Part shown: piece after piece, positions 1 through 50,509 of the stretch
Numbering within the stretch: position 1 is the stretch's first letter
Layout of the letters: each line of letters opens with the position of its first letter
Source of the DNA: Angiostrongylus vasorum
Lineage: Eukaryota > Nematoda > Chromadorea > Rhabditida > Metastrongylidae
Direction: 5' to 3'
Assembly: GCA_018806985.1 (NCBI GenBank)
Contig: JADANN010000222.1
Span: 1,130,001 to 1,194,000 of the forward strand
Length of the DNA stretch: 64,000 bases
Made by a program: the position numbers and the translations under genes
The notes under the pieces: model-generated
The model's database searches: none
What the model was told of the DNA's origin: nothing
Seen by the model: only the letters and a program-made list of their open reading frames with translations

Positions 1-369
1 TTCTCATTCAATTATTTTAAACAGAGTTTTGGTCTACCCATTAGCGAGGGCACACCATTTTTGCGGTTTGCCCCAGGCAATACATGCGAGCAGTTCTTCG
101 TCATTTGCGGACTTACTGGTTTTCTCACATTGAAAACAATTTTTCAATAGCTAAGCTTATTGTGGACGTGTGAACATGACAGGATTTCAGAAGAGACCGC
201 TCTATGTTCTATGGGTACAAACAATATGCATGCTACCATTTCTAGACTATTTAACCAAGATGAAATTGGTAATAGTTATACTTGGCTCTTGTTTAGACAT
301 CGTCACTTTGTTTTCTTCAGAGCCGCGTTAATCCAAGTCGGTGGTGCCCAAGTTCGACATTTATACATG
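1..369. other. No recognised feature (probably gta-1 intron)
   Basis: No exon, RNA gene or known repeat was recognised. Because gta-1 runs leftwards off the window, this is most likely intronic. Confidence 0.4.
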
Positions 370-1314: not shown

Positions 1315-4300
1315 CTTTTTCTTCCATTCATCGATCTTTTCCTGAACATCTTGTAGACATTCCTTGTCTTGAGCATCGTTATATGCTTGATTACTTGCTA
1401 ACGGATACTTATAACGTGGAAACTTGGCGATAGGCCAGTCAAAAGCAGGAATATCTACCTGTAAACACCCATTTCTGTGATTGAATCACATAGTAAAGGC
1501 CAATATGATATTGTACTGACAATGTACTCGACAAAACTTTCAAACAACGTTTATTTGTTTAGAAAAATGTTCCATAAATATATTAGTCACAAACGAGAGG
1601 CCGTTATACAGTACTTTTTACTTCCGTACAAAAAACGCCCACAACACAACGGTAACTGACGTTGCGGTAGTATAGCCCTCTCCAGAGCTTAAAAAGGTAT
1701 ATTGATATGCAATTCATTACGCCAAATGCTTCAATAACACATACAGAAAGATGAAAATCTATACGGTAATCACATGATCGACAGCTTCTCAAAAACCCCA
1801 CTGTTTCTATGTGCCTTCTACTGAAGAAGAAGAGGTGATAAGAAGAAATGCACGTTAACACAGTGGGTTTTCCGAGAAGCTAATAATCATGTGATTACTA
1901 TATAGATTTCCATCTTTTTATTGAAGCATTTGGCGTAATAAATTGCATATCAATATATTCTTCCAGGCTCTAAGGAAGGCGATACTGCTCAATTGTCAGC
2001 TACTGTTGGACTGTGTGCGTTTTTGTACGGAAGTAAACGTTTGCTATATAACAACCTCGCGATTGCTGAACAAGAAAATGACGCATTTATAACCCAGTGC
2101 CGAGGTTAATAGAAAGCCGACCCTGCGAATTTATGCTAGTCACAGATATCCATTATCAGGAACATCGAGCTAGAGTACATTAAGCACTCACTGAACTTAC
2201 AAAGTATTTTTGAAAAAGTCCTCTATTCTAATTGAACTTGCTTTCTGAACTGTTGTGTCGAAAAGGAGAACCTCAATCTATACTGTCACTTTGTTTCGAC
2301 TTTTAACTGCTGCCCATTCCTTTTTCATGGCAGGATATAGGTGAAATACAATCACAAGGATGCTGAGACATGAGCAAAACTCGGAACCTCAGGTGCGCTT
2401 CGAACCCGTGATTTCTCTTACCGCGGACCACGTATTACTTACTTCACCAACCGAGTACCTTGCTTTTACCTTTTTTCTTGGCCAGTTTTTTCACCCTGAC
2501 GTTTATCCTGACGGTGATACCAACAATCACGCATCACCCGGAATGATTGAAGAGGGAGAGCACAAATCGGCGGTGAACCCAGTTAAGCCGAAGCTGCACT
2601 CCTGTTGATGGATGATTGCTGATAGCACCGCTTGAGTAAAGAAACTGGCACAAGGAAAGGCACAGCAAGGGAATCGCCGGTTCGTAGCGCGTCCGAGGTC
2701 ACGATCTTGCTCATATATCAGCAACCTCATACATTGCCACTGTAAAGTGTCTATGCAACACAAACATTTAACGTTAACGTTTACGAAGAGCACTGATGTT
2801 CAGAAATCAAACTAGTGGACGAAAAAAAAAGGATGAATAGGGCAGAAAAAGTACTTATAAAAGATTTGACAGAGTGCTACATATTTTATTGGTCGTTTTA
2901 CACTGCCCTTGTTAGTGACTTAGCTGTAACATTAACAGGATAAAGGATAAAGCTCTCGGCCTTGATCAACCGCTGAGGGATGCGCCATGCATTCGACTTC
3001 ATTAAGTATTGTTGAAGGTGACTGAATGCATATCTGGCCTTTACAACGACTCGCGGTGGCCTACCGATGTAACGAGCCAGTGATGCCACCTTCCCAGACA
3101 AGTCTGGCACCAATTTGCCGACCCCGGACGGATGGAATGCTTGGTGGGCCATTGGCGCGGGGATCGATTCCACGTGTATGTTGCAGTGGCGCCTCCAACC
3201 ACTGCGCTACACGTGCCCTCCTGTAACATTAATTTGACTAATTTGCTTACCTGGGTAATAGTAAGATTCCGTTCCTTACATACTATGAATTTAGCCTAAT
3301 AATCGTTTCTACTTGACTGCAAAACCGATGCCACTGTTTTCTTTTTTTCCTTCAACAGATCATAGTTTGACATTAAATTTCTACAAAGCTATGCAATACA
3401 TGCATTAGATCACTCTTCTAGATGATACAAAAAAATATAATAGATGGGCAAAAAAGGTAAGAAACATGAGGCTACTTGGCCGGTTACGACGTTTAGCTAG
3501 GAAAACTTTAGCTCTCGCGTCAACTGTTCTACCTGGATATTTAACAAACGTCCATCTTTGATAATCGTTTCGGCGAAATCATCGAATTTTTAGAAAATGA
3601 ATTTCATCAAGTTGTATTATCACACACTATTATTATATGAGGAACATGGATAAAAAATTTTCTCATCACTCTAGTCAAGTAGAACACTGGTAATATATTG
3701 GCAAGGGGAGAAAAGAATTATAAACCTTGTGTATGGCTTTACTTCGCGTTACTGACAACATGCAAAGAGATCTCCCGTGAAAAGCACCCTGAAAAAGTCA
3801 TGAAAATTTCCATCCTGAATTCAGTCTTTTCTACTGAGTTGTAAAGAAACACCTGAAAACCAAGTACGGAAAGTCTTGGTGTGCCAGGTTGTTTCTGAAA
3901 CATGGAACTAGTGAGCGCTGCCTCATCGGGTGGATTTCCTCCACGACGATTTGTCATATACCTGAATTAATGGATTTCCAGTAATTGGAAAAATTTGAAC
4001 AGAATTCTGGAAGCCGTGAAAGTCTGATATATCAAAGCCATTGATGCGAATTCTCATTCTGCTACCCGTCAGCCTCACTTAAAATGTTTTTCTATTTTAG
4101 TGTTAGGACAAATCTATTATAAACCGCTAGAAAGCGAGTGGTCTCGAACTTCGAAGCCCAGCATCACCTTGAGAGCAGGGCAACGAAGCGGAGAAGGGGT
4201 CCGAAATTTCCACTAAGTAGCTAAGGCAAATCAACTGCTAAGGATCATTGTTATGCTCGCAACAACATCGTCGTAGGTGGCATTTAGTGATGGCAAGAAC

Positions 4301-7300
4301 ATACCTATAATGGTTTCCGAAGAACTACTAAAAAAAATCTTGCCTCACCAGCAAATTCACATTCAAATGGGATTTGTGCTGTAGCCCGCATCATTATTCG
4401 TCGGCAGTCAAAGAAGGGCCATTGAAGTGTTCAAGTAACTTTTTTCTAAGTAGTGAATTCGTATGACATGTCACCGCTCAGTCACAACCAGTCAAAGAGT
4501 TAATATACTCTTATAATAAAATATAGCCAATGGATGAACTAGAACAGATGTAGATATCAAGAGTTAATGGTCACACGAAAGCGAAACCGAAATAATGAAT
4601 GCACTCACCAAATGAAAGCCGTTTTTATTGCGTTTTCATTAGCAGATGTCCCACACAGCATCGTTTGCACCGCCTAGAAAATAGATTCGTTGAATAATCA
4701 CAATGGCAGTGGTTATCAACAGCTCTTCGTGCCATGAGAATCATCATCGGAGCTCTTTATTGCACGTTTTATAGGAATATTATGCGTTAGTCTTGGTCAC
4801 ACACTACTTTTTCTTTCACCAGAGTTCCATGGTCACATTTTCTAGAACTTCTTTTGTTAAATAAACGCCAAGTTCAACAGATCCTACGTTCCTGCGTCCT
4901 GTGCAAAATCTCCCACACACCCTACTGTGCAGAATAATAATTGTTTCTGTCTTCGTTACCCACTAAATGTAGGCAGTGGATAGTTTTTTTGCTCACATTC
5001 ACCTTTTCCTTGTTCTCTTTCGGCTTTACTCTTTTAAGGGACACCAGAACCATCAGAATTTTCACATAGACCTTACTATTGTTTTTTTTTAAATGAGAAA
5101 CAAAGCTAAAAAATGATGGGTTATTCCTACAGCTCTGTTGTAGGGCTAAGTTCACTCGTGGATGACTAACTTATTGCGCCCTTCCATTTTAGACAAGCGT
5201 CTTTTTTTGAGTCTACATCGAAACGTCTCCGACATGCTCCATAATCAACTGATTTTGACGAAATGGATGTGCAGGACAAAGTCCAAATCCATCAAATACA
5301 CCCATGCACATAACGATTAAAGGCACATAGAGAAATAAGCCTATAAGTTTCCGCTATGGCAGAACCCCACGAAAGCCAATTTGGAACCGTTTGCTTCATA
5401 ATACAACAACCACGTGCTCATTTTGGTCCGTAATCAGCTAATTAGAGAGATTACACGTGGCTTTAAGCTCACAAAAATCTGCAACTTGCCGCCGTGCATA
5501 ATTGATAATGGTCATCAGGCACAGTTTTCTCGAAAGTAACAAACCGGTCAAATGGAATGTGGTACTGGTACGTGAAGTCATTCATAATGATGACGGCTAA
5601 TCAACTATAAGGTATCAAGTTGGTCGCCATATACGAAAGATTTTGGAATAGGAAATCATAGGCGACAATTGTATATGTAGAAAGAATACCCTCAACAAAA
5701 AAGTGTCAAAGCAAAAAAAAGCTCTCGGCGTTGATCAATCCCTAAGGGATGCGTCATGCATTCGACTTCATTAAGTATCGTTGGAGGTGATTGAATGCAT
5801 ATCTGGCCTTTACAATGACTCGCGGTGGCCTATCGATGTATCGAGCCAGTGCTGCTAGCCTCCCAGACAAGTCTGGTACCAATTTGCCGAGCCCGGAGAG
5901 ATGGAAGGCTTGGTGGGCCATTGGCGCGGGGATCAATTCCACGTGTGTGTCGCAGTGGCGCCTAGAACCACTGCGCCACACGCGCCCTTAAAAAGTGTCA
6001 GTTACTGCAAATAAGGAAAATTTCCCATGTCACGACTGCTAAATAATCTAAAAAGTAGCCGAATAAGAATTAACCTGAAGTCCTTTTGGTGCAATTGATG
6101 TTAACGCTTTTGCAAGAGCATCTGGGAAATCACGACGCGGAAACGAACCCAGTGCCGGCCGTGACACTAGTGACGTCTGAAACTTATTAAACTTGATTTT
6201 AAAAAGTTTTGGTCACAAATAGTTTTTTTCTGTCTTCTTCATTTATTTAACATCAAATTCAGACAATGACTTCTACTTAGTCACTTGTAATCGCTGTCAC
6301 GTTTGTTAGTCATTTCTATTACACTCATATTTACGTAAACCGTGAAGTTCAAAAACAACCAATAATACGGAAAACAAAGAATAGAAAAGAGAAGAGGGAA
6401 ACAGAACTTTTAATAATGTTACCTTTTTATTCATTGCCTATTACAATTTATCACGGCAGGGTATTATGTGTGGTACAACCACAATGGTGCTGGGATATTT
6501 GCAAAACTCCGGACCGTAGGTGCCTGCGGTAGGGAACAGCGACCTATTGTCCTTTCCGGGGTCTAACGCGTTCATCATCACACCAAGCATGTCCTTCGTT
6601 TCGCTTTCCTGTCAGCTAGATTTCTTTCTATCAGCGCCATCAGCCATCACTCGTCAATGCGATTGATCTGGGAAGCCCAAATCGGCAATGAACCCTGTTA
6701 AGCTGAGGTTGTAGTCGAAGCTACAATGTTAACTTTTCATTTACTGCCTATTACAATTTTACAGAAAAGGGAACACAACAGAAAGGCGAAATGAAGGACA
6801 CGCATGGTATGATGGTGAATGCGTTAGCCCCCGGAAAGGGTAATAGCGCATTCGTTCCCCACTGCAGACACCTGCGGTCCGGAGTTCTGCAAATATCTCA
6901 GAACTTTAACAGATAATATGTGCCAGCTGGTGAAACGCCGACTACTGCAAGATGCACTGCCGTCAAAAATGTAGATCATATTGGATGGCCGCAAGAGCTA
7001 AACAACCGTCCTGTATAAAAGGACACCGCAGAGTGTGGAAACTTTACTCGATCAGTGTTCCACTTCACACGAACACCGTCATCGCGAGGACGACCATCTG
7101 TGGACCCAACCGTTCAGATCAATCCGGCTGTGAAACATAGCGAAGGCGCCAACACATTAGTCGAATAAATCTTTTTTACCAACCTCGTGTCAGCTTAATA
7201 GTCGAATGTATTGAATAGTTTTTCCAAGGTTTAATAAAAGCCGTTTTAAGAAGCTATATGGTTACTTTTTACGTAATGAACTGGTTTAGGTTGTAAGATG

Positions 7301-10300
7301 TAAAGAAGTAACCACTAACTATGAACGCTATTAGACTGGTAGCCGCTGAACAAGGCGATTCCAACCGAAATGTCAGCTTTTTGTGAATAGACTACAATAA
7401 CAACCTCGTGTGTGCTTATTGAAAAAAAGTTAGTGGATAAACGTTATCTTTTCGTATCCTACACTTATTATTACTAAACAATGTGTTCCAAAGTATTTAG
7501 TACCTGTATTATGGAACGAATTTCCTATTTCTCATGGGGGGAATGGAGTTTCGAGAAATCTGCTCCAAATTTTAGAGATCCTCTCATCGATGGATTATTG
7601 CCACTTCGTAAGTTTTCATAAAAGGGCTATGTGAGTTCGCATAGAAATCTGCTACAGGATTTTAGGAATGCCTCAAAAACTTATTAATCCATCAATGAAA
7701 GTGCGACCAACATTTGTGCGGGAATAATTTTGCCTTTCAACTATCGCAAAAAATAACACATTTTTACTTTATACTGACTTGTTTAATTGATATAAGAGCA
7801 ATAACAATGTTTCAAAACGGACTTTCCTTTAACCTCAGTATTACCAATCAATATTCATTCTTTCTTTGATGAGCTTAGACGAGGTTGATAAACAGTTTTA
7901 TTCGATTAACGTTTCGACGTCTTCGCCTTCACCAGAATCGACGATCCAAATCGATAGTCCACCGTTCTTCTTTGTCTCGATGTGGCGTCTTCGCCCTCGT
8001 ATCCAGTTGTCTTCCTCAGAAAGAATGCATATTGATTAGTAATACCGAGGTTAAAGGGAAGTCGGTTTTGAAATATTGTTATTGCTCTTTGCTAGCTGAT
8101 AATGATACCGACTTCTGCAGGATTGATTGTCGGGGGAAAAACAAGTTGCTATCACCGGAAAATCACAGCTATCAACCATAAGCAACCTGCGTAAAAGGGC
8201 ATAATCGAGTGAGAAAGCCTCATTCGAGAGATGGTCCGCTGAAGAAGACACAACTCGATATGAAGGCGAAAACGCTACATCGAGACAAAGAAGAACGGTG
8301 GACTATCAACTCGAATCGTTGGCTCTGATGAAAACGAAGATCTCGAAAGGTTAGCCGAATAAAACTGCTTATCAACTTCGTGTAGGCTCTTCAAAGAAAG
8401 CATACATATTAATATAAGAGCCATCGATAACTGCAGACTTTTTTGATAACAAGATGGAGCTCTTCTAAATCTATTAAAATAAAATTCTAATCTTCTGCAA
8501 ACCACAGAAGGAATCTTTCTCTCCAGTTAATTTTTTCTTGAAGCTGGTATACCCGAATATAAAGCTCTTAAAACAGCGAAAACTCGTCCGACGGATGGAA
8601 AGTGTTAACGAGTGCGTCGTTACGAAGTGGGCGCCTTACTGCGATTGTGTCAGATCTATTAAAAAATGATTTGTTACGCCACATTAAAGTCTAACTTAAA
8701 AAATGCAAAATAAAAAAGAACTCTGAACTGCGTATATATGATCATAAACCTCTCAAATTATAATCTTTAGATGGAGTAAAGTATCTTCGACGACTTTGTC
8801 AAATCCTCAAGTATTCTGGTTATCACAGAATTGCCAACATCTGTGCTTCAAGTACCTTTAGAAGTCTAATTAGCTTTGCTCATATTACAAATTTCCTCTT
8901 CTTTTGTTTAAGCTTCTGTTCTATCAGTGCTTAAAATTTTTGGTAGTTAGAATTTCTTTTTCACTTCTTTCCGTAATGCTGGACGCTAGTCTGTTTTTTT
9001 TTCTTGCTTTATTCATCAATCAAAACGTATTTGTTCAGTAAGACAATACCCACAGTAGTACGTATTGTGGTGTTGCGTATTGAGATTAAAGAAGAACTTA
9101 CGATAAATTCGGGGTTGCTGGCCGCATTCACCAGATCAGGATGATTGTAGCCGAGTGGAAGCGACGAAATTTGCGTGTAGACATCCAGGAAGGTGTTTCC
9201 TTAAGAAAAAAAAGTGCTCTATCCTATGCTTTTATAAGCTAACAGAAACTGCCAAGTTTGTTTCCATGTTTTCCATGGATTTGATGTTCATTTAATTCAA
9301 TAAGAAAAATCCACTCCGTAAATGGATGAAAATTGTTAACATGTAGGAGCTAGTGACCCTATGGGATATGAACACATTTCATATTCGCTTAATCCAAACG
9401 TTTAACAATAAGTTATCTGGCAATTGCATGAAAAGTTCAGGATGATCCGGATTTGTGATTTATGAATCGAAAATCCACGTGCATTCTAATTTATTATTAG
9501 TACCATTACATTACTATTACAAAATCGAATAGGCACGAAAGCATCTGTCTGTATCATCTCCCTAAAAGTGTGTTATTCTTCGAGTCACTACAGCCGAGCC
9601 ATCCATAATAGGCAGCTCAGAGAAACAATGGAAGCTTTAGTGGCACTCGCCTCTTCACTTCATGACTAACGGGGTTTCAGGTGATACAGGTGGTATAGGT
9701 AAAGTAGTAATATAAACGGCTACAATAAATATGTTCGAAGTGGAATATTCTGCACTTACCATCTGCATCAACCATGTAGTTTCCAAAGGACTTCTCGTAG
9801 TCGACGAACAGTCGTACGGATGTGGTTTGCAGAAATGAAAGACTGGTCGAATTCAAAGTTAAGATGGGGAGAATTTTCTTTTTGATCTGAGAACCAATGT
9901 AATAATTGCATTATCTGATGTATTTTCTTTATATGAACAGTCGTTTGTTACTGAAGATGATCAATCTTTTTTTCTTTTCATTTATAACTCCAACAGTGAC
10001 TGTATGTAAAGGAATTTATTTTTTCGAAACAGTATTTTCCAGTCATGTTGATCTTCTTCAGGTGTTCTCCACCGTTACTATCCATTAAAAGAGAGCATGA
10101 CCTTCTTCCAGTGTTGTTATCACATATCGCCTTCCAACTAATCATTTCAGAAAAACAACCTCTCTACGGTGCTTTCGATAGATATTGATTTCATTTCAGT
10201 GTTTTTAAATGTATTGGTTTTCTTCCAGTATTTTCTATACATCCCAAATCTTTTCACCTTTTTCGAGATTAGAAACCAACTACTTCGCCAGCACTGAAAG

Positions 10301-14564: not shown

Positions 14565-14600
14565 GGGTAACGTTTCGACATCTTCGTCTTCCTCAAAGCT
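14565..14600 (-). ncRNA. Hammerhead-like unit, stem I decayed
   Basis: Minus strand: AGCU, UUGAGGA (C3 to U), A, GACG-AAGA-UGUC, GAAAC, GUU, ACCC. Stem II and GAAAC are kept; stem I no longer pairs. Confidence 0.5.
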
Positions 14601-15039: not shown

Positions 15040-15075
15040 AGCTAACGCTTTGGCGCCTTCACTCTCTTCAGAGCC
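15040..15075 (-). ncRNA. Hammerhead-like unit
   Basis: Minus strand: GGCU, CUGAAGA (fits CUGANGA), stem II GAGUGAAGGCGCC, AAAGC, GUU, AGCU. The core box is good; the GAAA box has changed to AAAG. Confidence 0.5.
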
Positions 15076-15389: not shown

Positions 15390-15425
15390 GGCCTACGTCA
15401 CAGCGCGTTCGCCTTCCTCACAGCC
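15390..15425 (-). ncRNA. Hammerhead-like unit, decayed
   Basis: Minus strand: GGCU, GUGAGGA (C3 to G), GGCGAACGCGCU, GUGAC in place of GAAAC, GUA, GGCC. Kept as the third member of the tandem array. Confidence 0.4.
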
Positions 15426-17679: not shown

Positions 17680-17960
17680 GGTGCGTGTAGCGTAGTAATT
17701 AGAAGTGCTCTGCGATACACACGTGGTCGTTGACGATCCTGGGTGGCGCCCTAGCCAAGCCCTCAATATTTCCGTAGTCGGCAAAATAGTACCAGACTTG
17801 TCTGGGAGGGTAAAGCACTAACTTGATGCATCGGTAAACCAACGCAGGCCTATAGGTCAGATATGCATCCGATCACCTTTAACCATGCTGATGAAGTCAA
17901 ATGCATCGCGCTTTCCTTAGGGATTGATCTGCGCCGAAAGCTTTGTCTTTTATTCTTTGT
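17680..17960 (+). repeat. SINE family A, decayed plus-strand copy
   Basis: tRNA-like head GTGCGTGTAGCGTAGTAATT, then ACACACGTGGTCG, ACCAGACTTGTCTGGGAGG and a tail CTTTGTCTTTTATTCTTTG. Moderately diverged. Confidence 0.75.
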
Positions 17961-18965: not shown

Positions 18966-19001
18966 AGCTGACGTTTCCACAGAATTGCCTTCTTCAGAGC
19001 T
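18966..19001 (-). ncRNA. Hammerhead-like unit at PLE end
   Basis: Minus strand: AGCU, CUGAAGA (fits), GGCAAUUCUGUG (stem II poor), GAAAC, GUC, AGCU. Core boxes intact, stem I perfectly paired, stem II decayed. Confidence 0.6.
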
Positions 19002-19507: not shown

Positions 19508-20689
19508 ATCTCCGCAATTACTACAAGAGATCAGGTATATTGTACCTGAACTCATGCAATCACCGTCCCTGCCGTAAGAGCAAATTACGCAATTTGTTTT
19601 TTTCGCATAGACGGTCATGCGAGGCGGTTGCGAACTAATTGGCGACGAAGAGTGTCGGATGGTATTTCTACTATCGCAACCGATTCCTCCAGGCCTGCCC
19701 TTCTTAAGCATCGTTTAATAGCTACGCTTACTTCATCGCTAATAAAGGACAACATAAATGCAACTTTCTTTCGGCCAAATATTTCGTTTTAGCGCGTCGC
19801 TCTCCTTCTGAACTTATCTCGTGCGGTTACTATTTCGTAGCCATTGCAGATGGCTATTTGCCGAGTCAAGTCGCGCGATTCTTCCTTTAGTTCCTTGGTT
19901 GTGCACACAGAGGTGGCTGTTCGAAACATGTTTCTCACAAGCGCCCTCTTTGTGTGTGAAGGGTGGGAAGAAAGGAAATGAACTAGGATACTTTTGCTGC
20001 TTGGTTTTCGGTACCATTTTGCCATGTAAGCGCTACTTGATAGTTCGTGACCGCCTGTACGACCGTCTGTGTGAAGCAGCGGGTTGCGTAGTTTGCCCTT
20101 GCGGCGGGGACGGTGATTGCATGAGTTCGGGTACGACGTACCTGATTTCTTGTAGTATTTGCGGAGATGAATACATTGGCGAAACGGGCAGACTTTTTTG
20201 TTTCCGTATAAAAGGACATCTAGATAGCAAACGAAAAGCAAGGCAAAGTGTCCCAGTAGGCACGCATAGGATACAAAAGCATAGCGGAGACGATTTTGAT
20301 ATGAAAGCCGCAATCCTCGCACGGGATCCCAAAACACCAGCGCGCAAACTTCTCGAGGCTTTTTGGATGAATGCTAAAAAACCCCTACAATGAACAGCAG
20401 GCAGGAATGCCTCGAGATCACACGTGATCTCACCCCCATTCGTTCGCATCGATCGTTGATGTGGTGAGGTGCAGTCGTCAACCGTATGCGACCCCGAGCG
20501 GCTGTTCTTCCTCGCCGGAAGACAGGTAAAAATGGTGGGTTTTTCGAGAAGCCGGTGATCGAAGTTTTACTTAGTGTAAACAGATTGATAATCACGGATG
20601 CTCTCGATGGTTAAGGAAAGCATTGTGATAGCTATTCCCCAAGTAGTTCCCATCCTTTATACTATCATGTACCTACCATATTAACTTTG

Positions 20690-21420: not shown

Positions 21421-21879
21421 CCGTTGTATAAACCCGTCGACCACATATGGACCTTCGTCTACATCTGCGCTAACAAGCACTCTTACAACTATCATCTCCT
21501 TTCTTGATCGTTTTATATCAGTATGTTACATCATCATCAATTTATCACAAGGTCCATGAAGGTGATTCACATTTTATCCACCCTGGGACAAACATAGGCT
21601 ACAAGAACGCGCGTTTCCTCTTCTTGCCGGATTTGTAAACGCTCCGATATACTCGGCACGTATCCTAGTGAGTTGTACTCGTCCAACAATAAACGCCGCA
21701 CAGAACGAAATGCTTCGCAAAGGATTCCATATTCGTATAATTTCAATCAAGTAGAATCGACATGAACACAACGAAAATACATGTAAGATTTCCCTTTCCT
21801 CACCTCTCTTACTACTTGTCGAATAGAAGTTTTGGAGCGTGGCCCCATGATTTTTCTTTACATTACTCTTCTTTCGTTT
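21421..21879. repeat. Repeat shared with 41.40-41.54 kb
   Basis: 'TAAACGCCGCACAGAACG' near 21,690 matches 'TAAACGCTGCACACAACG' near 41,445, both followed by similar 'TCAATCAAGTAGAATC / CAATAAAATCAACTTC' sequence. Class unknown. Confidence 0.4.
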
Positions 21880-24430
21880 ACGATTAAAAAGATGTGGATC
21901 AATACCAGCTTTGACAATATTCGTCGTTTACGCGCCGACACCAAACTATGACGAGGAAGAAGTCGAAGCGTTCTATATGTACTTGGAGAAGTTCTACAAG
22001 GAAGACCATACATTCTTCAAGGTCATCGTTGGAGATTTCAACGCCAAGACTAGACCAAGAAGAACGTCTGAAGAACGTCACATTGGGACCCACAGATTAG
22101 AATGGAACGAACAGGGTGAGCGGCTGTCTGAGGTTATCATGGCGACCAAGACAATCCATGGTAACTCACAATTCCAGAAGCCCCACCCTTAGCGCTGGAC
22201 GTGGGAGTCTCCCAATGGAGAGTACCATAACGAAATAGACCATATCATAGTAAATAGAAGGTTTTGCCTAACCGAAATCGCTGTTGTTTCATAATTCTAC
22301 ACGAGATCAGACCACCGTCTCCTTCGTGCAAGATTCCATTTCTCGCGCAAAGGAGAAAAAATCAGCTAAATTCAAAAACTGAAGTCCCAGAACCACCATA
22401 AAGTGGAACCTACTCAATTCATTAGTGGGCTGTTGGGAAGATGCCGTTGTCGATAACATCGACGAAGAATACGATCGGCTCATTCGATATCTTCATGTTA
22501 GTGCTGTGAAAGCTGAGAGTTTGGAAGTCACCAAAAGGCGTTTGTCTCCACAGAGCTGATACCCCAGCGCGGAATCGCACGAGCTGCAGGCAACCTCGAA
22601 CTAACGTCCGAACTTTTAAAACAATGCAGACCGGCGATAAAAGAAGATCTTAAAGAGAGAAGAGCAGCAGTAATGGTCGAAGCTGCAGAGGGTGGGAAAA
22701 GCATTCGCAAAGCCCACCGAAGCTTCGCCAGTTACAAGACCAAGATGACTCCGAAGCCCAGACAGAACACTAACAGCGTCCAGAAAGACAATGGAGAAAA
22801 CCATTCACGAATACTACTCAGACTACTTAGATCTCTTCGATAGCCACGTGTACCTTCCATCATATGAAGTAAAGAGGATGGATATGTAGTAGCACCAGTT
22901 CTCCCTTCCGAAATCTGACATGCCATTACGTCGGTGAAAAAATCGGACAGCACCAGGTTCGGACAGGATAAGATCAGAACACCTGAAGAATCTTCCGCCA
23001 GTCCTCGCAAACACACTGGCTCGGCTCTCCACACGTTACCTGTCTTAATGCAAGGTCCCTACTCAGTGGAAGACCAGCAAGACCGTATTATAGTATTATG
23101 TTAAAGAACGGTGACCTACACGATATCGGCAACTATCGCCCAATCTGCTTGCTGTCTGTCGTCTACAAACTTTTCACTCGAGTCATCTTAAACAGGATTG
23201 ACAGAACACTGGACGAAGGACGGCCGTGTCAGCAAGCAGGGGTTTCGAAAAGGATTTAGCACGGTGGATGGACCACATCCACACGATAAAAAGACTCATT
23301 AAAGTATTGCGAGAGTACAAAAGACTGCTCTGTCTTAATTTCCTCTATTTACAGAAGGCCTTTGATTCAACTCGGATAGAAGCAGTCATGGAAACCCTTG
23401 ATAGTCAAGGGAGTCCCCTACTAAGTATATAAAGATTCTTCGTGAGCTGTACAAAAATTTCACAATCAAGATATCAGCTTTCTACAACGATATTATCATT
23501 GATGTCAAAAGAGGGGTTAGGTAAGATGACATCATCTCGCCAAAATTATTTACCGCCACCCTCCAGAACATCGTGCGAACACTGGAATGGGATAATGTGG
23601 GAGTGAAAATCGATGGTCGGCAGTTACATCACCTTCGCTTTGCTGATGACATCGTCCTTATAACACCAAACATTAGCTAGGCGGAACGTATGCTTGCCGA
23701 TTTTGATAAAGCCTGTGGAAAGACTGGTCTTCGACTAAATCTCACAAAAACGATGTTCATGAGGAAGAACGAATATTTCCGAATACTCCAGTTATGTCTA
23801 TCTAGGTCGGGAAATCAACATGATGAACGACTTAGCCCCAGAGTCGAGCAGGGGAAACGAGCGGCTTGGGGAACTTTCAAGAGCATCGAGGATGTACTGA
23901 AGAGAACAAGGAGCACCCAACTCCGTGCCCACCTTTTCGACTCAACGGTACTTCCTGCCCTAACGTATGCGTCAGAAACCTGGTCGCTGCCTAACCAGGA
24001 TGAAAGATCACTCAGCATTATCGAACGCGCACTCGAAAGTACGATGCTAGAAGTGTCCCATTTCACACAAGTAAGGGAAGGAATCCGAAGCTCCGACCTG
24101 CGTCAACGATTAAAAATCAAAGATGCCGTTCTATACAACAAATAGTCGAAGATAAGATGGGCCGGACACGTAATGCGTATGAATGACAACCCATGGACAA
24201 GAGCCGTTAGTGACTGGATTCCTCGGGATGTCAAACGTACTGCAGGAAGACCACCGACACGTTGGTCAGAGTTCTTCACGAAGAGCCTAGAAGAAAGACA
24301 TGATGCTCAACGAGTTCCTAGAGCGAGCAGAATCCATTGGGCCACTCTTGCACGTGATAGCGAAAAATGGAAGATTTACTGGCGCCCGCTCCAGTCGCTC
24401 GACGATCAACGGGACTACACGTGATACATG
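21880..24430 (+). mobile_element. RTE non-LTR retrotransposon, near full-length but dead
   Basis: Apurinic endonuclease pieces [27 protein letters not shown] and the S-D-H-R-L-L-R-A motif are followed by reverse transcriptase blocks IDRTL, GFRKGFSTVD, DDIISPKLFTATLQ, LRFADDIVLI (catalytic F-A-D-D intact) and GLRLNLTKTMFM. The C-terminal region includes RWAGHVMRMNDNPWTRA and GRPPTRWSEF. Several stops and frameshifts interrupt it. It lies inside the 20.7/26.1-kb inverted repeat. Very close to the copy at 42-43.8 kb. Confidence 0.93.
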
Positions 24431-26747: not shown

Positions 26748-26783
26748 AGTTCTGACGAAGACGAAGGCGTCAAAACGCCAAAT
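26748..26783 (+). ncRNA. Hammerhead-like unit
   Basis: AGUU, CUGACGA (fits CUGANGA), A, GACG-AAGG-CGUC (good stem II), AAAAC, GCC, AAAU. G12 is lost and GUH is GCC, so probably inactive. Confidence 0.5.
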
Positions 26784-27141
26784 AAGGTTAACAAAGCTCA
26801 ATCATACGGAAAAATTATTCCACAAATACGTATTCTTTCATTGGTGAGCTAAAACGAAGTTGATAAAATAGCTCATCTCCAATTTGGTGCCTCCAATTTG
26901 GCGGGCAATGCGTTTTGTAGCAGTAAGTACTTCATTTGCAAGAAATTCTCCAATTTGGTGGGCAGTTGGAGACCACATGGCATGGCAGGAATCGCGATCG
27001 GCCCGTCCTCCACAAAAGGCACTGCCAAGTGAACTTTCCGATTCGAGCGATACTCCTAGTCTACTATATTCGAAACGATGCGAAAACGAACACCCATATC
27101 GCGAGAACGACCACCTGTGGACCATCGACTCGGATCAACGC

Positions 27142-27177
27142 CGCTCTAAGAAATGAGAAGGCGCCGAAACGTTAGCC
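27142..27177 (+). ncRNA. Hammerhead-like unit, core decayed
   Basis: CGCU, CUAAGAA, AUGAGAAGGCGCC, GAAAC, GUU, AGCC. The 3' boxes are intact; the CUGANGA box is not. Confidence 0.45.
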
Positions 27178-27289
27178 GAACAAAAGCTTTTGTACCAGCC
27201 TCCTGTCAGGTTATTCATGAACAAATTTATTGAATTTTATTGCCGGGGTTTAACAAAAGTTCTTTTTTAAGATATTATTTGAGAAATAT

Positions 27290-27570: not shown

Positions 27571-27717
27571 AATCAAAAGACCGACTTTCTATAGACTTTG
27601 GCATAGATAGTTGATATATTTATTTATACGATCTTATAAACTGATCTTCTTTAGCTGATGCGATGTTGGCACAATTCTTCGTTGTCGTTGTCGTTGTTGT
27701 TGGTGTTGTTGGTCCAT

Positions 27718-27753
27718 GGCTGACGTTTCGACGACTTCGCCTTCCTCAGAGCC
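27718..27753 (-). ncRNA. Hammerhead-like unit, best match in window
   Basis: Minus strand: stem I GGCU, CUGAGGA (fits CUGANGA), A, stem II GGCG-AAGU-CGUC, GAAAC, GUC, stem I' AGCC. Beyond a small internal loop stem I continues as UCC/GGA. The only departure from a textbook core is one extra A before stem II, and stem III is only the self-complementary ACGU, implying dimer action. Confidence 0.65.
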
Positions 27754-30650
27754 TGGACGTACTTTATACAAGAATACTTCAATTATTTGGTGGAAAAAAA
27801 GGCCAAAGTACTATTGAAGATCAAACTTTAGATAGACGCCGTATTGAGCACAAAGGCTACTCACCGTGATGTTAAGAGTGGGACTGGCCCACGCGTTGTT
27901 CACGTGAGGTCACGAGCGAGACACACCCAGGGGTCAAAATATCATTTTGAAACAAGGCGCTAAGTCACGTATGATAGTGAGGCATTCGTCTTTCCGGTTC
28001 ATCTTTGGATTTTTGAAATTTATCCAAAATGCTTCAAGAGTTCTGTGCGTTGATGTTTTTTTAGTTCCTGCGCTAGGGATCCGGACATTCACTTCAAAAT
28101 CATCGCCATTGTGCTTTTGTGCCCTATGCGTACCTAGGAGGAGTGTCATGACGAATTTTAACTTTCCCTATCCAGATGCTCTTCTACACGGACACAAAGT
28201 GGTCTACCCGTTTCCCCCAATATATTCCTCACTGCATGCGCTTACATGAGATCAAGTATATTATACCTGAACTCATGCAATCCCCTGTCTCTTAAGTTAG
28301 GACAGATCACACAGTTTTCTGAGGTGCACAAACGATCTTAGAGACGGTTGCGAACTAAGTGACAGCGTAGGGTATTGGGTGGGATGTCAATAATCGTTAT
28401 ATAATTTTCAAGACCACTTTTTCTTAAGCATCTCTTAATGGCGTAACTTATTTCATTCGATATGAAGGGTAGCTTAAAAGGGATCTTACTTACGTCCGAA
28501 ACATTATTTTCGGGGAATCACCTAAGTTTCTTTGTTTTTGTCTAACCCGAGTGGCTTTCTACTTCGTAGCCATTGGAAATGGCTATTATTCGTGCCAGGT
28601 CTTAGCGATTCCTTCCTTTTCCTCTTCTCCCTGTGCACACATTTTTAGCCGTACGGTCCATGTTTTTGATAAGTGCTTTTTTTCATACGTTAAGGATGAG
28701 AGGAGAGGTAGTGAACTTTTATATTTTTACTACTTGGCTGACTATACGATTTTGTTATATAGCCACCCACTTTCTGAGAACTTCATTTGGATGTTTAAGA
28801 ATGGAAGCTAGTTCTCGGTTAGTTTTTCCCTTTTAAATTTTATATACTGTGACGTTTTAACAATTCAAAAGCACTCATCCATCTGTTCTTGTGCGGAACA
28901 GACGATGAAGCAGTCGTCTATGTATCGACAGCAGAGTAAGAGTCGGCGATCGAGAACTGGAGCTTCCACCTTAGACATGAAAGCGATGGCAAGGCTTGGT
29001 GCTAAACGCTGTCCCATGGCCAACCCTCTAATTTGTGCAAAATATTTTTCCAGACCACCTAAAGATTGAACAACTAAGACACTGTTTTAAGAGAGTCATT
29101 AGTTACGCAATCAACAAACCGTACATTTTTTATTTTCTTTTCGTGCTCTACCAGCAGCTCGAGAATGGCTTGCATTGCGGAGTCATTCGACACGTTGGTA
29201 TAAAGTGAAGTAACATCGAATGACTCCATTACATGCGTGCAGTTTGGTTGCGCGCACCGTAGGTGGTCTAGAAATATTTTGGTGTTGTGTAAATGGGTTG
29301 GAATGAATTTTAGCAACTGGGTCAGGATAAGGTTTAGGAACCACGCTATTCTATCCGTTGGCCCGCCTATGCAACTGATGATAGGTCTAACTTTAAATGA
29401 TGATGGGTTCGTTGATGTAATATCATCAGATGAAGTAAGCTTATGTTCTCGACCACCGACCCTTACTCTACTGTCGATACATAAACGACTGCTTCATCAT
29501 CTGTTCCACACAAGAACAGGTGGATGAGTTGCTTTGAATTGTTAAACCGACAGTCAGAGTATATAAAATTTACATGAGAAAAAACCAACCGAAAGACTGG
29601 CTTCCATTCTTAAACATCCAAATAAAGGTCTTAGAAAGTGGCTATAAAACAAAATGGTATTGTAAGCCAAGTAGTAAGAACATACTAGTTCACTACCTCT
29701 CCTCTCATCCTTCACACATGAAAAAAAGCACTTATCAAAAACATGTACCGTACGGCTAAAAATGAGTGCACAGGAGAAGACGAAAGGAAGGGAATCGCAG
29801 AAACCTGGCACGAAAAATTGCCATTTTCCAGTGGCTTGGACGTAGAACCCACTCGGGCTAGACAAAAACGTAGGGTAGTTCCCCAAAATAATGTTTCGGA
29901 CGTAAGTAAGATCCCTTTTAAGCTATCCCTTCATATCAAATGAAAGTAAGTTACGCCATTAAGAGATGCTTAAGAAAAAAGTGGTCTTGAAAATTATATA
30001 ACGATTATTGACATCCCACACAATACCCTACGCCGTCAGTTAGTTCGCAACCGTCTCTATGATCGTTTGTGCAGCTCAGAAAACTGTATGATCTGTCCTA
30101 ACGGAAGAGACGGGGATTGCATGAGTTCAGGTATAATATACTTGATCTCATGTAACGCATGCAGTGAGGAATATATTGGGGGAACGGGTAGACCACTTTG
30201 TGTCCGCATAAAAGAACATCTAGATGGGAAAGTTAAAATTCGTCAAAACACTACTCTAGGTACGCATAGGGCACAAAAAGCACAAAGGCGATGATTTTGA
30301 AGTGACTGTACGGGTCCTAGCGCAGGAGTCGAAAACATCAACGCGCAAAACTCTTGAAGCGTTTTTGGATAAATTTCAAAAATCCAAAGATGAACCGGAA
30401 AGACGAATGCCTCACTATCACACATGACCTGGCGCCCTATTTCAAAATGATATTTTGACTCTGGGGTGTGTCGTGCTCGCAACCCCACGTGAACAACGCG
30501 TGGGTCAGTCCCACTCGTAACATCACGGTGAGTAGCCTTTCAATTTGACCGTAGCATCCTAACCCACCATCTATTTAAAACTTTGATCTTCATTAATACT
30601 TTAGCCTTTTCCACATAATAATTGAAGTGTTCTAATATAAAATACGTCCA

Positions 30651-30686
30651 GGTTCTGAGAAAGGCGAAATCGCCGAAACGTCAGCC
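30651..30686 (+). ncRNA. Hammerhead-like unit at opposite PLE end
   Basis: Stem I GGUU pairs AGCC with a U-G wobble; CUGAGAA (G8 to A, expected to abolish activity); stem II GGCG-AAAU-CGCC; GAAAC; GUC. It faces away from the unit at 27,718. Confidence 0.6.
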
Positions 30687-30799
30687 ATCGACCAACAACA
30701 CCAACAACAACGACAACGACAACGAAGACCTATACCAACCTCGCATCAGCTAAAGAAGATCTGTTTATAAGATCATATAATAAATATATCACCCGTAGG

Positions 30800-34189: not shown

Positions 34190-34450
34190 GTTGTTGTCAG
34201 GTTGGCATCAGTTGTTCTTGATGCTTCTGCTGTTGTGGTTCGATGACCGATATTTCTGCGACTTTGCCTTCCTCAGAGCTTGGACGCATTTTATGTAGTG
34301 ATTTCCATAATTCGACAAACTTCTAAAGTACTAGTGATGATTTAATGTACCAACGAACCTTGTTTACAAACCACTCACCGTGCTGTTACGTGTGAGACCG
34401 CCTTTGTGTTGTTCACGTCGGATGACAGTGAGAACCACCCAGGTTAAAAA
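34190..34450 (-). repeat. Penelope-like terminal fragment
   Basis: Matches 27,655-27,930: shared TTTTATGTAG/TTTATACAAG region, 'ACTCACCGTGCTGTTACG' and 'GTGTTGTTCACGTCGG'. Contains the unit at 34,245. Directly abuts the gta-1 pseudogene. Confidence 0.6.
34245..34280 (-). ncRNA. Hammerhead-like unit, decayed
   Basis: Minus strand: AGCU, CUGAGGA (intact), GGCAAAGUCGCA, GAAAU, AUC, GGUC. Stem I and the GUH triplet are lost. Confidence 0.45.
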
Positions 34451-35891: not shown

Positions 35892-36101
35892 TAAGGAGTC
35901 AAAAGACCGACTTTCTATAAACCTCGGCATAGATAGTTGATACATCTATTTATGTGATCTTATAAACTGGTCTTCTTTAGATGATGCGAGGTTGGTATAG
36001 GTCTTCGTTGTCGTTGTTGTTGTTGATGTTGTTGGTGGATGGCTGACGTTTCGGCGATTTCGCCTTTCTCAGAGCCGTGATGTTACGAGTGTAAGGAGTC
36101 A
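35892..36101 (-). mobile_element. 188-bp Penelope terminal insertion with 11-bp target-site duplication
   Basis: GTAAGGAGTCA occurs at 35,892-35,902 and again at 36,091-36,101. The 188 bp between them match the Penelope end at 27,576-27,760 (GACCGACTTTCTATA... to ...TGATGTTACGAGT) and hold one hammerhead-like unit. The perfect duplication marks a clean insertion of an isolated terminal block, about 190 bp past the mspn-1 stop codon. Confidence 0.8.
36041..36076 (-). ncRNA. Hammerhead-like unit downstream of mspn-1
   Basis: Minus strand: GGCU, CUGAGAA (G8 to A), A, GGCG-AAAU-CGCC, GAAAC, GUC, AGCC. All stems pair, but G8 is mutated. It is in the sense orientation of mspn-1, 215 nt past its stop and beyond a possible AATAAA at 36,120-36,125. 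Confidence 0.6.
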
Positions 36102-36290: not shown

Positions 36291-39200
36291 TTAGTCCAGA
36301 CTATACTCGGTCATCTGTTGAGATACCCTGGAGTACTTCTTCAATGCAAAATCCAAATCTTCTGCTTCAATTGGTTGTCTGTTTTTCAAGCTTCCCCCAT
36401 GTTCTAATGTTGCTTTCGCTCGTGACAGCACTGCAAGACGACATACCTGCAACAGTAATAGTAAAAAAAGAGATAAAGCTCTTGGCGTTGATCAATCCGT
36501 GGAAATGCACCATGCATTCGACTTCACTGATCATCGTTGGAGGTGAATGAATACATATCTGGCCTTTACAATGACTAGCGGTGGCCTACCGATGTATCGA
36601 GCCACTGCTGCTATCCTCTCAGACACGTCTGGTACCAATCTGCTGACCCCCGAGCGATGGAGAGCTTGGTGAGCACTGGGTTCGGCGATCGATCTCATGT
36701 GTTTGCATTGCGTTTCCCACCACTGCGCCACATGCGCCCCTTGTAATCGTACTGCACAAAGAGCTGGATATTTTGGTGGCCTCTCTTAACGATGAATCGC
36801 CCATTAGCACAGTTCTCCATCGCTTCTTCCACTCGCGGTACCATAAACACGTTCATACACATTATAAGTAGACGCCAAAGAGGATAATCACATTGTCTCC
36901 GTATCCACTCTACTGATTTTTACGTTGCTTTATCGTTGACTATTCTCAATGAATGACCGGCTAACAATGCCCCACTTTTGATGTGTATTTTTCCCATGGA
37001 TCGTTCGTTCTGTTCCTCCCATCCAGTCTATTCAATTACCCATTTGACAGAAGAACAGCATTTTCGTAAGGCAGTTGTGGTGGCAAACGGTCAGTTTCTA
37101 GATAGCAGAGCTTCACTTCTCGGTCCACGAGCGGTAACTGGCACCACTTCGACGCTGTTGCACGCTGTAGACAAAAGCAAAAGACATGTTGATCCCGCGA
37201 GAATTAACGGCTTTCACAGCGCTTGACGTCGTAAACAGGAGCGTCTATCGCGTGGGAATACAGACGCTGAGCTAGTCCCGGTTACAAAACCTATTTTTTC
37301 TCCTGAGGTAGCCTTTCTGGAATGTTCTCGCTTGACCACCACAGGCTTTTCCTGGTCGTTGTGAATGGAGTGGATATTACCGTATTACGGCTAACGTAAA
37401 CTGAATAAACTATATGAACTAGTAGAAACAGAAGATGAAATAAATCACTACGACATATACAGCTATAAATCTAACTTCTTTAAGATCAGATCCCGATAGT
37501 CCATTCGCCATTAACGCAATCTTTTTCAGGTCGACAGATTCAGAAACGGTCTCGTTACGTAGAATAACCTTCAAAAGAGAAGATTTATAAATGTAACAAC
37601 ATTACTGCTTGAAGATAACCTAAAAAAGAGGTGTAGATTTAGAAGTAGAATTGTTTGAGTGCCTTAAGAATTTCTTCTCTTTGCTGTTCATTGGGAACTG
37701 GTATAGCAAATCGAGCAGACATTCGACGTAGAATCGCAGGATCTACATCTTGAGGTCGATTTGTGGCACCCATGACAATTATCTAAAAACGGTATTGTGT
37801 TTAAAAACACCTATCGATGCAGTTAAAAACAAACTAAGGAGGAGCAAAACATGGTACAAATTCTAAAGATTGGCATTTGCGTCATACTGTTGAGCAAGGA
37901 GGATACACCGACTAGGTGCAGTCAGGCTTATCAACAAAGATATCATTTTTAAAGAATGGCGCGATATTTAGAAACGTTTTCTCAGCAAAAAAATGTAGGA
38001 AGAAGTGACCTTGTCATTGGTGGAGGCAAAACCATCCCATAATGTCATAAACTGTGCTTTCATCATTGCAGTAGCTTCATGGTCATAAGATTGGCGATCG
38101 CGAAGAAAAGAGTCTAAATTACCATTACGAGTTATCCTCATGCTGTTAACTGCTTAAGTCACTAAAGTACATAGTCCTTCTCACCAGTGAGCAGACGAAT
38201 ACTTATTAAAGACACAAACAAACCGATTTCATCAATGAAAATAATGGTAGGTTGGAACTTTTGAGCTACTGAAAACACTGCCGCTGCTAGTTTTTGCGAT
38301 TCACCGTACCACTTATCTGTGAGACTGGACACTTGTAAATTGATGAATCTGAAATGGCCCAATTGAAAGCAATACCAAGATTGGGATTTGAAAAGCTGTT
38401 GCCCACCTAAGACTTGGACGAAAATGTTAGTTATAAGGGGCAAAACAGACCGTACAAGAACATTCTTTGAAATTGTAAACAAAACTGCAAAACAAACAGG
38501 CTTGGTAACAATGAGCTCATATGGAGGGATAAAAGAAACAGTGCTATATTGTCCAATGCGCCTAACACAACTCTTTTCGGTAACTTTTCAAGACTGTAAG
38601 TCATCTGATCGGAAGTTATTAGAACAAGGAGCAGCTTTTCTTTGAAACAAGCAACCAAAAGGGTGTCGTATCTTACACACGTAAGGAAGGCTAGCAGGGT
38701 AGTTAGCAACGTAGACATAGATTTCTTACGCCATGGTATAGTGAATGCGTGGAAGACATATGGTGATCCCGCGGAACTAATTCTGCTAGAACTTGTCTAA
38801 TGAAGTTTCATCACAAATCACAGAATGTTTGAAAGACAGCTTTGCTCAAACCACACCCGGTGCAACATCTGCGGTAAGTGAGTAGAGACAAATTTGGTAC
38901 AAAATGTGCCACTAAAATCCCCGCATGACAAAAAGAACAATGGAGAATAATATGCATTAAAATCAATGCTTGCGAATATGTTGTAGTTACCTGCAACCAG
39001 CAGCGCGGGCTACTGCTTTTGCTACCAATGTTTTGCCACATCCAGGTGGACCGTAAAGAAGAATTCCTCAAATAGTAATGTGATTGACATTGAGTACTTT
39101 TGCCCGAAATTCGGTTTGAACTAAGGAGCATTTCTCACACCTGTGTACCGTAAGTGCCTACAAATTATAAGAATTCCATGAAATGTTGCACGAAGAAACG

Positions 39201-41629: not shown

Positions 41630-43775
41630 TCAATGGAGGTCCCCCATATGAGGGATCTCGAGCCAGTTAGTCGCGATGCTACATGGCGCGTCCCCAGGTG
41701 GCGGATAGGGGGGTTAATCGCCGATCAAAAGCGACCGTATGTTTCCCTGAGAAACAGGTGGATCAAGGGGATGGACTCCGTGCTTCTGCTGCGCCGATTG
41801 TTCACATACTTTCTGTGTTTAGGAGGCAGATTAATGCATGCGTATGTGCGTGCATTCTCGCTTATACGGAGTGTATTCTACGAATGAATTCGGTTAAAAG
41901 CTTGCAATCAAGTGACAGGGAAATATGTGGGAGGCGGTTAGGAGTCGCCTTCAACAAATAAGCTCCATGACCACTCTGAGGGAGACTGGCAAGCTAACCG
42001 GGAGTATACCCAGCCCCCCACGTTCAGAGCCCAGCAAACTATAAGTGGGTATCAAGCTAAAAGCAGTAAAAGAAACGGGCCTCATTCTCCTGACCACAAG
42101 AGCACCCGACTCGAAAGCGTTGGTTAAGCCGACTATGCAAAGGCTGCTAAAACCTCAGCGGCTTTCTAAGCTGCCTAAATCGCAACGAACTAAGGTGACG
42201 ATCTGTACCTACATTGCATGCATACTTGCATCCAATCCCCCGATACAAGAGTTGACTATGCAAGGATGAAGGATAAGGTACGACGTCATCGGCCTGGCCG
42301 AGACAAGGCGACGCCACCCATTCAACCCCGTCGATGACACTAGAGAAGAACTGTTCCTCGGAACATGCCACAGTAGAGGAGTCGGCGGTGTCCGCCTTCT
42401 CGTCAACACGAGTTTTTCCATGTACATTGATTCATTCGAACAACTAACATCTCGAATCGGACGTTTACGATTGAAAAGATGTCGATCAATACCGGCTTTG
42501 GCAATCTTCGTCGTTTACGCACCGACATCAAACTATGACGAAAAAGTCGAAGCGTTCTATATGGACTTGGAGAAGTTCTACAGAGAAGACCATGATATCG
42601 GCAACTGTCGCCCAATCTGCTTGCTGTCTGTCGTCTACAAACTTTTCACTCGAGTCATCCTAAACAGGATTGACAGAACACTGGACGCAGAGCAGCCATG
42701 TGAGCAAGCAGGGTTTCGAAAAGGATTTAGTACGATGGACCACATCCACACGATAACAAGACTCACTGAAATATTGCGAGAGTACAAAAAGACCGCTCTG
42801 TCTCACTTCCATCGATTTAAAGAAGGCCTTTGACTCAACTGAGGTAGAAGCACTCATGGAAGCCTTTGATAGTCAGGGATTCCCTATTGAGTACATAAAG
42901 ATTCTTCGTGAGCTGTACAAAAATTTCACAACCAAGATATCAGCTTTCTACAACGATATTATCATTGATGTCAAAAGAGGGGTTAGGTAAGGTGACACCA
43001 TCTCGCCAAAATTATTTACCGCCACCCCTCCAGAACGTCGTGCGAACACTGGAATGGGATAATATGGGAGTGAAAATCGATGGCCGGCAGTTGCACCACC
43101 TTCGTTTTGCTGATGACATCGTCCTTATAACATCAAACATTAGCCAAGCGGAACGTATGCTTGTCGACTTTGATAAAGCCTATGGAAAGATTGGTCTTCG
43201 ACTAAACCTCACAAAAACGATGTTCATGAGGAACGGATTGGTTTCGTATGCCCCATTCACGCTCAACGGAACGAATATCTCTGAATGATCCAGCTATACC
43301 TATCTAGACCGCGAAATCAACATGATGAACAACTTAGCTCCAGAGTTGAGCAGAAGGAAACGAGTGACGTGAGGAGCTCCCAAGACCATCGAGGATGTAG
43401 TGAGGAAAACAAAGAACATCCGACTCCATGCTCACCTTCTCGACTCAACGATACTTCTTGCCTTTTCGTGTGCGTCAGAAACCTGATCGTTGAGTTTGCG
43501 AGATAAAGGATCACTGAGCGTTACTGAAAGCGGAGTTGGAACGGACAAGAGCCGTTAGTGACTGGATTCCTCGGGATGTCAAACGCACTACAGAAAGCCC
43601 ACCGACCCGATGGTCAGAATTCTTCACAAAAGCCTAGAAGAAAGATATCATGTTCGACGTGTCCCTAGAGTGAGCAAAACCCACCGGGATACTCTTGCTC
43701 GCGGCAGGGGAAAAGTGGAAGATTTACGCCCACTCGAGTCATTCGACGATCAACGGGACTACAGGTGATACAGCT
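41630..43775 (+). mobile_element. RTE non-LTR retrotransposon with internal deletion
   Basis: 5' leader (41,630-42,200, CCCCAGGTGGCGGATAGGGG). The endonuclease start is DVIGLAETRRRHPFNP, GVGGVRLLVNT, FVVYAPTSNYDEKVEAFYMD. At about 42,592 it jumps from KFYREDH straight to IGNCRPICLLSVVYKLFTRV of the reverse transcriptase, deleting about 1.1 kb relative to the 22-24 kb copy. The RT continues with GFRKGFSTMDHIHTITRL and RFADDIVLITSN (catalytic box intact). Later frames break and a second gap removes much of the C-terminal region. Confidence 0.92.
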
Positions 43776-50485: not shown

Positions 50486-50509
50486 CCCCTGCATCTATAG
50501 TGTCAGGAG

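Follow-up and report, generated by a model that had tools for sequence, protein, structure and literature searches.

The question raised by positions 27718-27753 of this stretch of the Angiostrongylus vasorum genome is what kind of element a 36-nt segment found there, and again elsewhere on both strands, might be, what carries it, and what it does for its carrier. The stretch that was analysed is 64 kb long and is called the window below. Our answer, given with high confidence, is that each such segment is a minimal, type-I-like hammerhead motif and that most are borne by Penelope-like elements (PLEs); cleavage after GUH, between two copies, would be their putative activity.

A segment built on a single plan, and alignable without gaps, stands at all 14 window positions that an earlier note had listed, although the same note had counted "at least 13"; the plan and the positions hold, and only the number needed correction. 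The motif opens with a 4-bp stem I and CUGANGA; then come the extra A, a 4-bp stem II capped by four loop nucleotides, and GAAACGUH. In hammerhead numbering, the core corresponds to C3 U4 G5 A6 N7 G8 A9, to G12 A13 A14, to the pair A15.1-U16.1, and to H17. At least one core site is altered in 10 of the 14 window copies, in keeping with the previous description of many copies as core-mutated, and the core is intact in the other four (8321+, 18966-, 27718-, and 34245-). Among these four, 27718- alone forms all 8 of the stem I and stem II pairs, so it was rightly singled out as the cleanest copy. The motifs and the elements around them are collected in Table 1.

Table 1. Hammerhead-like motifs and Penelope-like features in the window, in order of position.
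Feature	Positions	Strand	Remarks
Extra decayed copy, likely	284..324	-	covariance model E 0.0019; absent from the earlier list
Motif, family C	1654..1689	-	A6>G and A13>C; inverted partner is 1966+
Motif, family C	1966..2001	+	three core changes; inverted partner is 1654-
Extra copy, doubtful	7126..7162	+	covariance model E 0.069; within 7069-7251, which matches 27086-27272
Motif, family B	7904..7939	-	A6>G; inverted partner is 8321+
Motif, family B	8321..8356	+	core intact; stem II 2/4 pairs
Motif, family B	14565..14600	-	C3>U
Motif, family B	15040..15075	-	G12>A and A15.1>G
Motif, without family	15390..15425	-	C3>G, A13>U, A14>G
Motif, family C	18966..19001	-	core intact; stem II 3/4 pairs; Penelope coding remnant 230 nt upstream
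Open frame of 193 aa, GIY-YIG-like, Penelope-like element	19812..20390	+	sequence likeness
Motif, outside the families by flank sorting	26748..26783	+	G12>A, U16.1>C; family-B-like over the motif
Motif, outside the families by flank sorting	27142..27177	+	G5>A, G8>A; family-B-like over the motif
Penelope-like remnant with the 27718 motif on its 3' side	27612..28965	-	self-BLAST, translations
Motif, family A	27718..27753	-	core intact; 8/8 stem pairs; predicted cut after GUC
RT-like fragment, open for 139 aa	29074..29493	-	likeness by eye to the RT frame of locus L039
Second Penelope-like copy, head-to-head with 27612-28965	29437..30791	+	87% identity
Motif, family A	30651..30686	+	G8>A; belongs to Penelope-like copy 29437..30791
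Motif, family A	34245..34280	-	core intact; AUAU replaces ACGU; stem I 3/4, stem II 2/4 pairs
Motif, family A	36041..36076	-	G8>A

The Rfam models do not report the window copies. Over the 64-kb window, Rfam gave zero families at the gathering score, and none of its hammerhead families appeared up to E 10, either over the window or over 27680-27790. A custom covariance model was built from the 14 window copies, so that their own E values of at most 1.3e-6 hold by construction; in an unfiltered search of the window it returned 23 matches up to E 5, consisting of the 14 known copies, the matches at 284-324- and 7126-7162+, and seven at E ≥ 0.59. A sub-threshold Rfam match resembling the microRNA MIR9555, at 1751-1913, was rejected, as it coincides with the inverted repeat that separates motif 1654- from motif 1966+. 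Decayed motifs on the same strand stand 350-475 nt apart in two groups (14565-, 15040-, and 15390-; 26748+ and 27142+), and old tandem pseudo-LTRs (pLTRs) or nested insertions could be their source.

Genome-wide abundance was determined by counting exact patterns, each with a reversed-pattern control, in the 280-Mb assembly. The pattern CTGANGAA-N12-GAAACGT, which spans the core up to U16.1 and leaves H17 free, occurs at 8417 places (4202 forward and 4215 reverse), compared with 7 for its reversed control, and this count is a real test because the pattern was not built from the window copies. When stem II is specified as GNCG/CGNC, the core pattern is found 2362 times against 0 in the control. 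Without the extra A before stem II the core is found only 182 times (14 in the control) as opposed to 8417 times with it, and the extra A is the rule in the A. vasorum genome. It had previously been listed as a departure from the hammerhead; both this A and the lack of a stem III loop are the usual form in this genome. The covariance model also gave 8 matches at E ≤ 0.1, all but one of which reached E ≤ 1e-4, in six 10-kb stretches, which were the first 6 of 60 random draws from 19 contigs (47 of 280 Mb) already known to bear copies. The copies with a perfect core number more than 8000 and belong to three families or more, so that this one nematode genome holds a large natural mutant series.

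These families emerged when 72 copies were sorted by their flanks, with 34 in family A, 12 in family B, 14 in family C, and 12 left unplaced. The majority strings of the three families are 75-86% identical inside the motif as compared with 17-38% in the ungapped flanks. Within the motif their differences are confined to N7, H17, the loop together with the stem II pair next to it, one other stem II pair, and the outer pair of stem I, all of them positions at which a hammerhead tolerates change. An earlier description of the architecture as hammerhead-like is upheld by the excess of core matches over the reversed control, by the co-variation of the stems described below, and by the sharing of the motif among three families.

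Covariation was assessed in an alignment of 77 copies (55 distinct rows) fitted to the model structure, with 500 shuffles for comparison. In this alignment, where part of the signal is shared descent and 20 loci had been picked for likeness to the 27718 copy, 91.4% of stem cells pair compared with 87.5% after shuffling, and 28 cells carry a double change compared with 10.8, neither value being reached by any of the 500 shuffles. Two weaker measures point the same way: 6 pairs show a double change against 3.6 expected from shuffling (reached by 17 of 500), and there are 15 further pair types against 11.7 (reached by 7 of 500). When the stem partners are slid out of register, pairing falls to 16-56%. 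The stem changes amount to few evolutionary events, largely between families, as at pair 14-23, which switches from G-C in families A and C to A-U in family B. The earlier note had claimed that stems I and II vary in pairs and had staked its reading on covariation among genome-wide copies; the excess of double changes agrees with it on both counts.

What carries the motif is clearest for families A and C. In the 600 nt that precede the motif, 22 of 34 family-A copies, 6 of 14 family-C copies, and 4 of 12 unplaced copies have Penelope coding on the sense strand, and antisense-only coding adds 4, 1, and 2 copies, respectively. Within the window such coding precedes 3 of the 14 copies (27718-, 30651+, and 18966-), and none was found in the 600 nt upstream of 34245- and 36041-. 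In the element at 27612-28965, remnants of GIY-YIG coding on the same strand as the 27718 motif, interrupted by stops, break off 184 nt before it. Families A and C are Penelope-like elements, and the link to Penelope that the earlier note had mentioned holds for them. For family B, several copies of which are in the window, a Penelope host is at most possible: RT/GIY-YIG coding was found within 600 nt upstream in none of its 12 copies. Pfam gave no match for the RT-like fragment at 29074..29493 taken alone, and no match at E 0.01 for the 193-aa frame at 19812..20390, which had 20122 first-look candidates genome-wide, 150 of them scored.

One locus holds a family-C tandem array (L039), with sense-strand motifs at 1856, 4890, and 7921, spaced by 3034 and 3031 nt. 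Each 3.03-kb unit has one motif, the matching stretches are 98.8-99.5% identical, and the element sequence runs on past the motif. Its 463-aa frame joins a reverse transcriptase (RVT_1, E 9e-10) and a GIY-YIG domain (E 1.3e-4, at its cut-off) in one reading frame; terminon-type telomeric PLEs are endonuclease-deficient and attached to telomeric repeats, and the GIY-YIG domain places L039 outside that type. Tandem copies that make pseudo-LTRs are present in this array, in family C only. The protein has 234 homologues at E ≤ 0.001; among the 120 matches listed, those with names are mainly strongylid RT/GIY-YIG proteins from Ancylostoma, Haemonchus, and Necator. The best-scoring homologue listed is 76% identical over the whole query, and the highest identities among the named matches listed are to Angiostrongylus proteins (80-91% over 25-56% of the query). 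These relatives by themselves point to a strongylid nematode, probably close to Angiostrongylus. Homology to two related proteins (P0001 and P0010) sets in some 460-470 nt past the motif, and two others (P0004 and P0013) are colinear with the L039 product only further in. Beyond the last unit of the array, at about 8100-8800 of the L039 reverse complement, there is a long microsatellite of TACA type.

Family B is harder to place. The in-register likeness among its copies reaches no farther than about 300 nt on the upstream side of the motif and about 95 nt on the downstream side (130 nt in one pair), and its 3' stretch resembles, by eye, the tail of families A and C. It may be a relative of Penelope that is truncated, decayed, or non-autonomous. 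Several of its copies also have, again by eye, a CTGANGAAGA-like stretch about 85 nt upstream of the motif, examples of carriers being window motifs 14565-, 8321+, and 26748+ and motifs at 887 in L015, 3866 in L024, and 395 in L028; this stretch could represent another ribozyme-like or structural element in degenerate form.

The arrangement of neighbouring copies resembles that of Penelope insertions described elsewhere (see below). In two positional lists of 100 places each, 16 of the 17 motif neighbours within 1 kb are divergent, 1 is on the same strand, and 0 are convergent. Among the wider covariance-model matches only 12 of 26 neighbours are divergent (6 same-strand, 8 convergent), so the rule is established for clean copies alone. 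Head-to-head motif pairs recur at 1590-2065, 7794-8413, and 27612-30791 of the window and in loci L010-L030. Seven of 14 pairs examined, all of family A, were taken for a test of insertion structure: a tail is present on exactly one side in 7 of 7, and direct repeats of 9-13 bp, taken as target site duplications, flank 5 of 7. Among 42 cross-locus controls, 3 have a repeat of 9 bp or more. The pairs left out were those without arms (L015 and window 1654/1966), one with an arm pair only outside the motifs (L030), one whose arm ends in a microsatellite (L010), two with arms that stop short of the tail (L012 and L020), and the family-B pair at window 7904/8321. In L010 the 3' flank enters a long (AAC)n microsatellite from 5085, perhaps an expansion of the AAC-rich stretch in the pLTR itself.

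How such a motif would fold into an active form is a separate matter. Stem III is no more than a short segment that is self-complementary; of the 14 window copies, nine have ACGU at this position and one has AUAU. Genome-wide there are 6434 copies with ACGT, 408 with ATGT, and 568 with AYAT; ATAT accounts for 8 of the 100 AYAT places listed, which gives about 45 ATAT copies (95% interval 20-86) against 33 expected. These counts show no covariation excess in stem III, whose variants behave as independent changes. Energies from the nearest-neighbour model, which is blind to tertiary contacts, do not favour dimers: for family A the dimeric hammerhead comes to -20.5 kcal/mol, an alternative duplex to -30.3, and two monomers to 2 x -11.1, and in all 4 strings the dimeric hammerhead is less favourable than both other states. 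The dimer energies are also unremarkable compared with 200 shuffles. The suggestion that the ribozymes are "probably dimeric" by virtue of ACGU therefore finds neither a covariation excess nor an energetic preference on its side.

From the sequence we infer self-cleavage, dimerisation, and a role for the motif along the following lines. Two sense motifs would meet in a tandem or multimeric transcript, or in one flanked by pLTRs, and their self-complementary ACGU segments would pair to make a shared stem III. Each paired motif could then cut the other after GUH, and multimeric transcripts would thereby fall into units that end in a 5'-OH and a cyclic phosphate. Cleavage might depend on binding of the element's protein, for which there is a reported precedent in Anolis.

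If cut RNA served as the template for insertion, complete copies would begin at the base after the cut, and this footprint can be sought in the genome. At the places that match a 19-nt family-C string across the cut, the C before the cut is kept at 2010 and replaced by another base at 37 (37/2047), while in the control the next base is changed at 45 (45/2055). Family C thus has no excess of 5' ends at the predicted cut site, in a test that leaves room for cut-site starts of up to about 2%, because 5' truncation is common among Penelope insertions. Those copies that were inspected together with their flanks also continue beyond the motif, and inserted copies appear to stem from RNA that was uncut at the downstream site. 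The family-C footprint agrees with passages of a study of Anolis, where the substrate used in vitro is mainly RNA that has not been processed (PMC11167929). A tentative extension, which we put forward as possible and hardly more, is that the Penelope hammerhead in this genome does not define the ends of the inserted RNA and that its core is kept for another step, with family B perhaps non-autonomous besides. If this were true, the other step could be the freeing of translatable or protein-bound units from tandem transcripts, or binding, and the role of PLE hammerheads would become testable from genome footprints.

The same observations bear on how far cleavage matters at all. The hammerhead fold could be kept mainly for protein binding or template recognition of Penelope RNA, with cleavage weak or incidental, and we regard this as a genuine though minority possibility: the missing pile-up of 5' ends at the family-C cut site (37/2047 against 45/2055) and the extension past the motif of copies inspected with their flanks count in its favour, and ribozyme-dead mutants still insert in vitro according to passages of PMC11167929. 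However, G8, G12, and GUH are alike in the majority strings of all three families, and a binding site has no obvious need for an exact hammerhead core. Rather improbable, in our estimate, is that family B, possibly along with other short copies, consists of hammerhead elements that are non-autonomous, either retrozyme-like or Penelope-derived and SINE-like, and are moved by the Penelope machinery. The lack of Penelope coding within 600 nt upstream of all 12 family-B copies would fit this, as would the short span of their in-register likeness given above and the decayed same-strand window copies 350-475 nt apart, and the mobilisation of retrozymes by PLEs has been proposed in passages of PMC7761336. 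Yet family-B copies are old and truncated, so that the absence of coding may be decay, and their tail-like stretch resembles, by eye, the tails of A and C; no stem III loop was seen, and the one tandem of retrozyme size that was found in the window (219 bp, 56840-57239) is without the motif.

Two further readings deny the motif an RNA function of its own. Conservation as coding DNA, as in Anolis where the ORF begins in stem II, draws on the fact that one frame is open across the motif in family-A and family-C copies, but the protein homology of the tandem element sets in some 460-470 nt past the motif (P0001 and P0010), the family-B majority string has a stop in the same frame at the second codon after the motif, and the paired switch at 14-23 alters second codon positions. 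This reading is very improbable, and we reject it. Least credible of all is a chance resemblance within an ordinary repeat: related copies of one repeat family can mimic structure, but here the motif is common to three families with dissimilar flanks, and the reversed controls gave 0, 7, and 14 against 2362, 8417, and 182. The reading of the 36-nt repeats as minimal hammerheads carried mostly by Penelope-like elements is accordingly the one we retain for the comparisons below.

The window also contains repeats and genes other than the motif-bearing elements. A family of repeats of about 270 bp, possibly MITE-like, is found on both strands at 2917-3226, 5718-5990, 13478-13767, 17680-17958, 36440-36750, 56793-57298, and 58700-59290; the part at 58700-59277 is an 86% palindrome, and at 56840-57239 a 219-bp unit is repeated in tandem 1.8 times. 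A second family, up to about 400 bp long and with copies 75-92% identical, lies at 10441-10834, 43903-44301, 48796-49171, 50111-50488, 52178-52489, and 53337-53481. LINE-like endonuclease/RT fragments at 21851-24428 and 42270-43772 are mutually 84-90% identical and match Exo_endo_phos_2 and RVT_1 below the curated cut-offs. The clearest host gene among the ORFs examined in the window is the WD40 region at 45212-48219 on the minus strand, whose coding stretch at 47821-48219 matches RACK1 in solved structures.

The structural class to which these motifs belong has been in print since 2014-2017, and the structural claim made here is not new. Minimal hammerhead motifs of Penelope-like elements were reportedly the subject of Cervera & de la Pena in 2014, and the title of Lunse, Weinberg & Breaker (2017), as cited, states that such variants cleave as dimers. 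In a literature search, no study of nematode PLEs could be recognised by title among the matches listed. Passages of two publications describe PLEs that carry minimal type I hammerheads without helix III (PMC6155905, PMC7761336); in those of the second, a review, these ribozymes may cleave through dimers, are dispersed by the thousands in animal genomes, and have a role that is called a mystery (PMC7761336). Further passages on this class are found in PMC8490949. As far as such passages go, the published minimal PLE hammerheads resemble the A. vasorum motifs in being type I, in having no stem III loop, in residing in PLE pseudo-LTRs, and in being dispersed by the thousands, and they are said to cut as dimers. 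In the motifs described here stems I and II have 4 bp each and are accompanied by the extra A; no difference from the published motifs emerges from those passages. Footprints in a genome can address the role of such PLE ribozymes.

Among related systems, the metazoan retrozymes offer a parallel for what family B may be, a type I hammerhead in a mobile, non-autonomous element. As described in passages of PMC7761336, retrozymes are repeats of 150-300 bp that in most cases have tertiary contacts and a helix III of little stability, features not shown by the copies here; same-strand motif neighbours within 3.5 kb are 513-3026 nt apart in the two positional lists. The Penelope elements of Adineta vaga, in the passages of PMC3846280 that bear on them, share with those of A. 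vasorum the inverted head-to-head pLTRs, the partial tandems, and the one-sided tail, and their target site duplications of 8-10 bp compare with the 9-13 bp repeats that flank family-A pairs here. Adineta vaga has few Penelope copies, whereas there are thousands here, and the word "hammerhead" is absent from that text (PMC3846280). A similar architecture is seen in the PAc hammerhead of the Poseidon element of Anolis, which, according to passages of PMC11167929, also consists of stems I and II only, also lies in the pLTR of an element with RT and GIY-YIG domains, and is cleaved with the assistance of protein. The PAc ORF begins in stem II (PMC11167929), whereas in A. vasorum the protein homology begins about 460 nt downstream of the motif.
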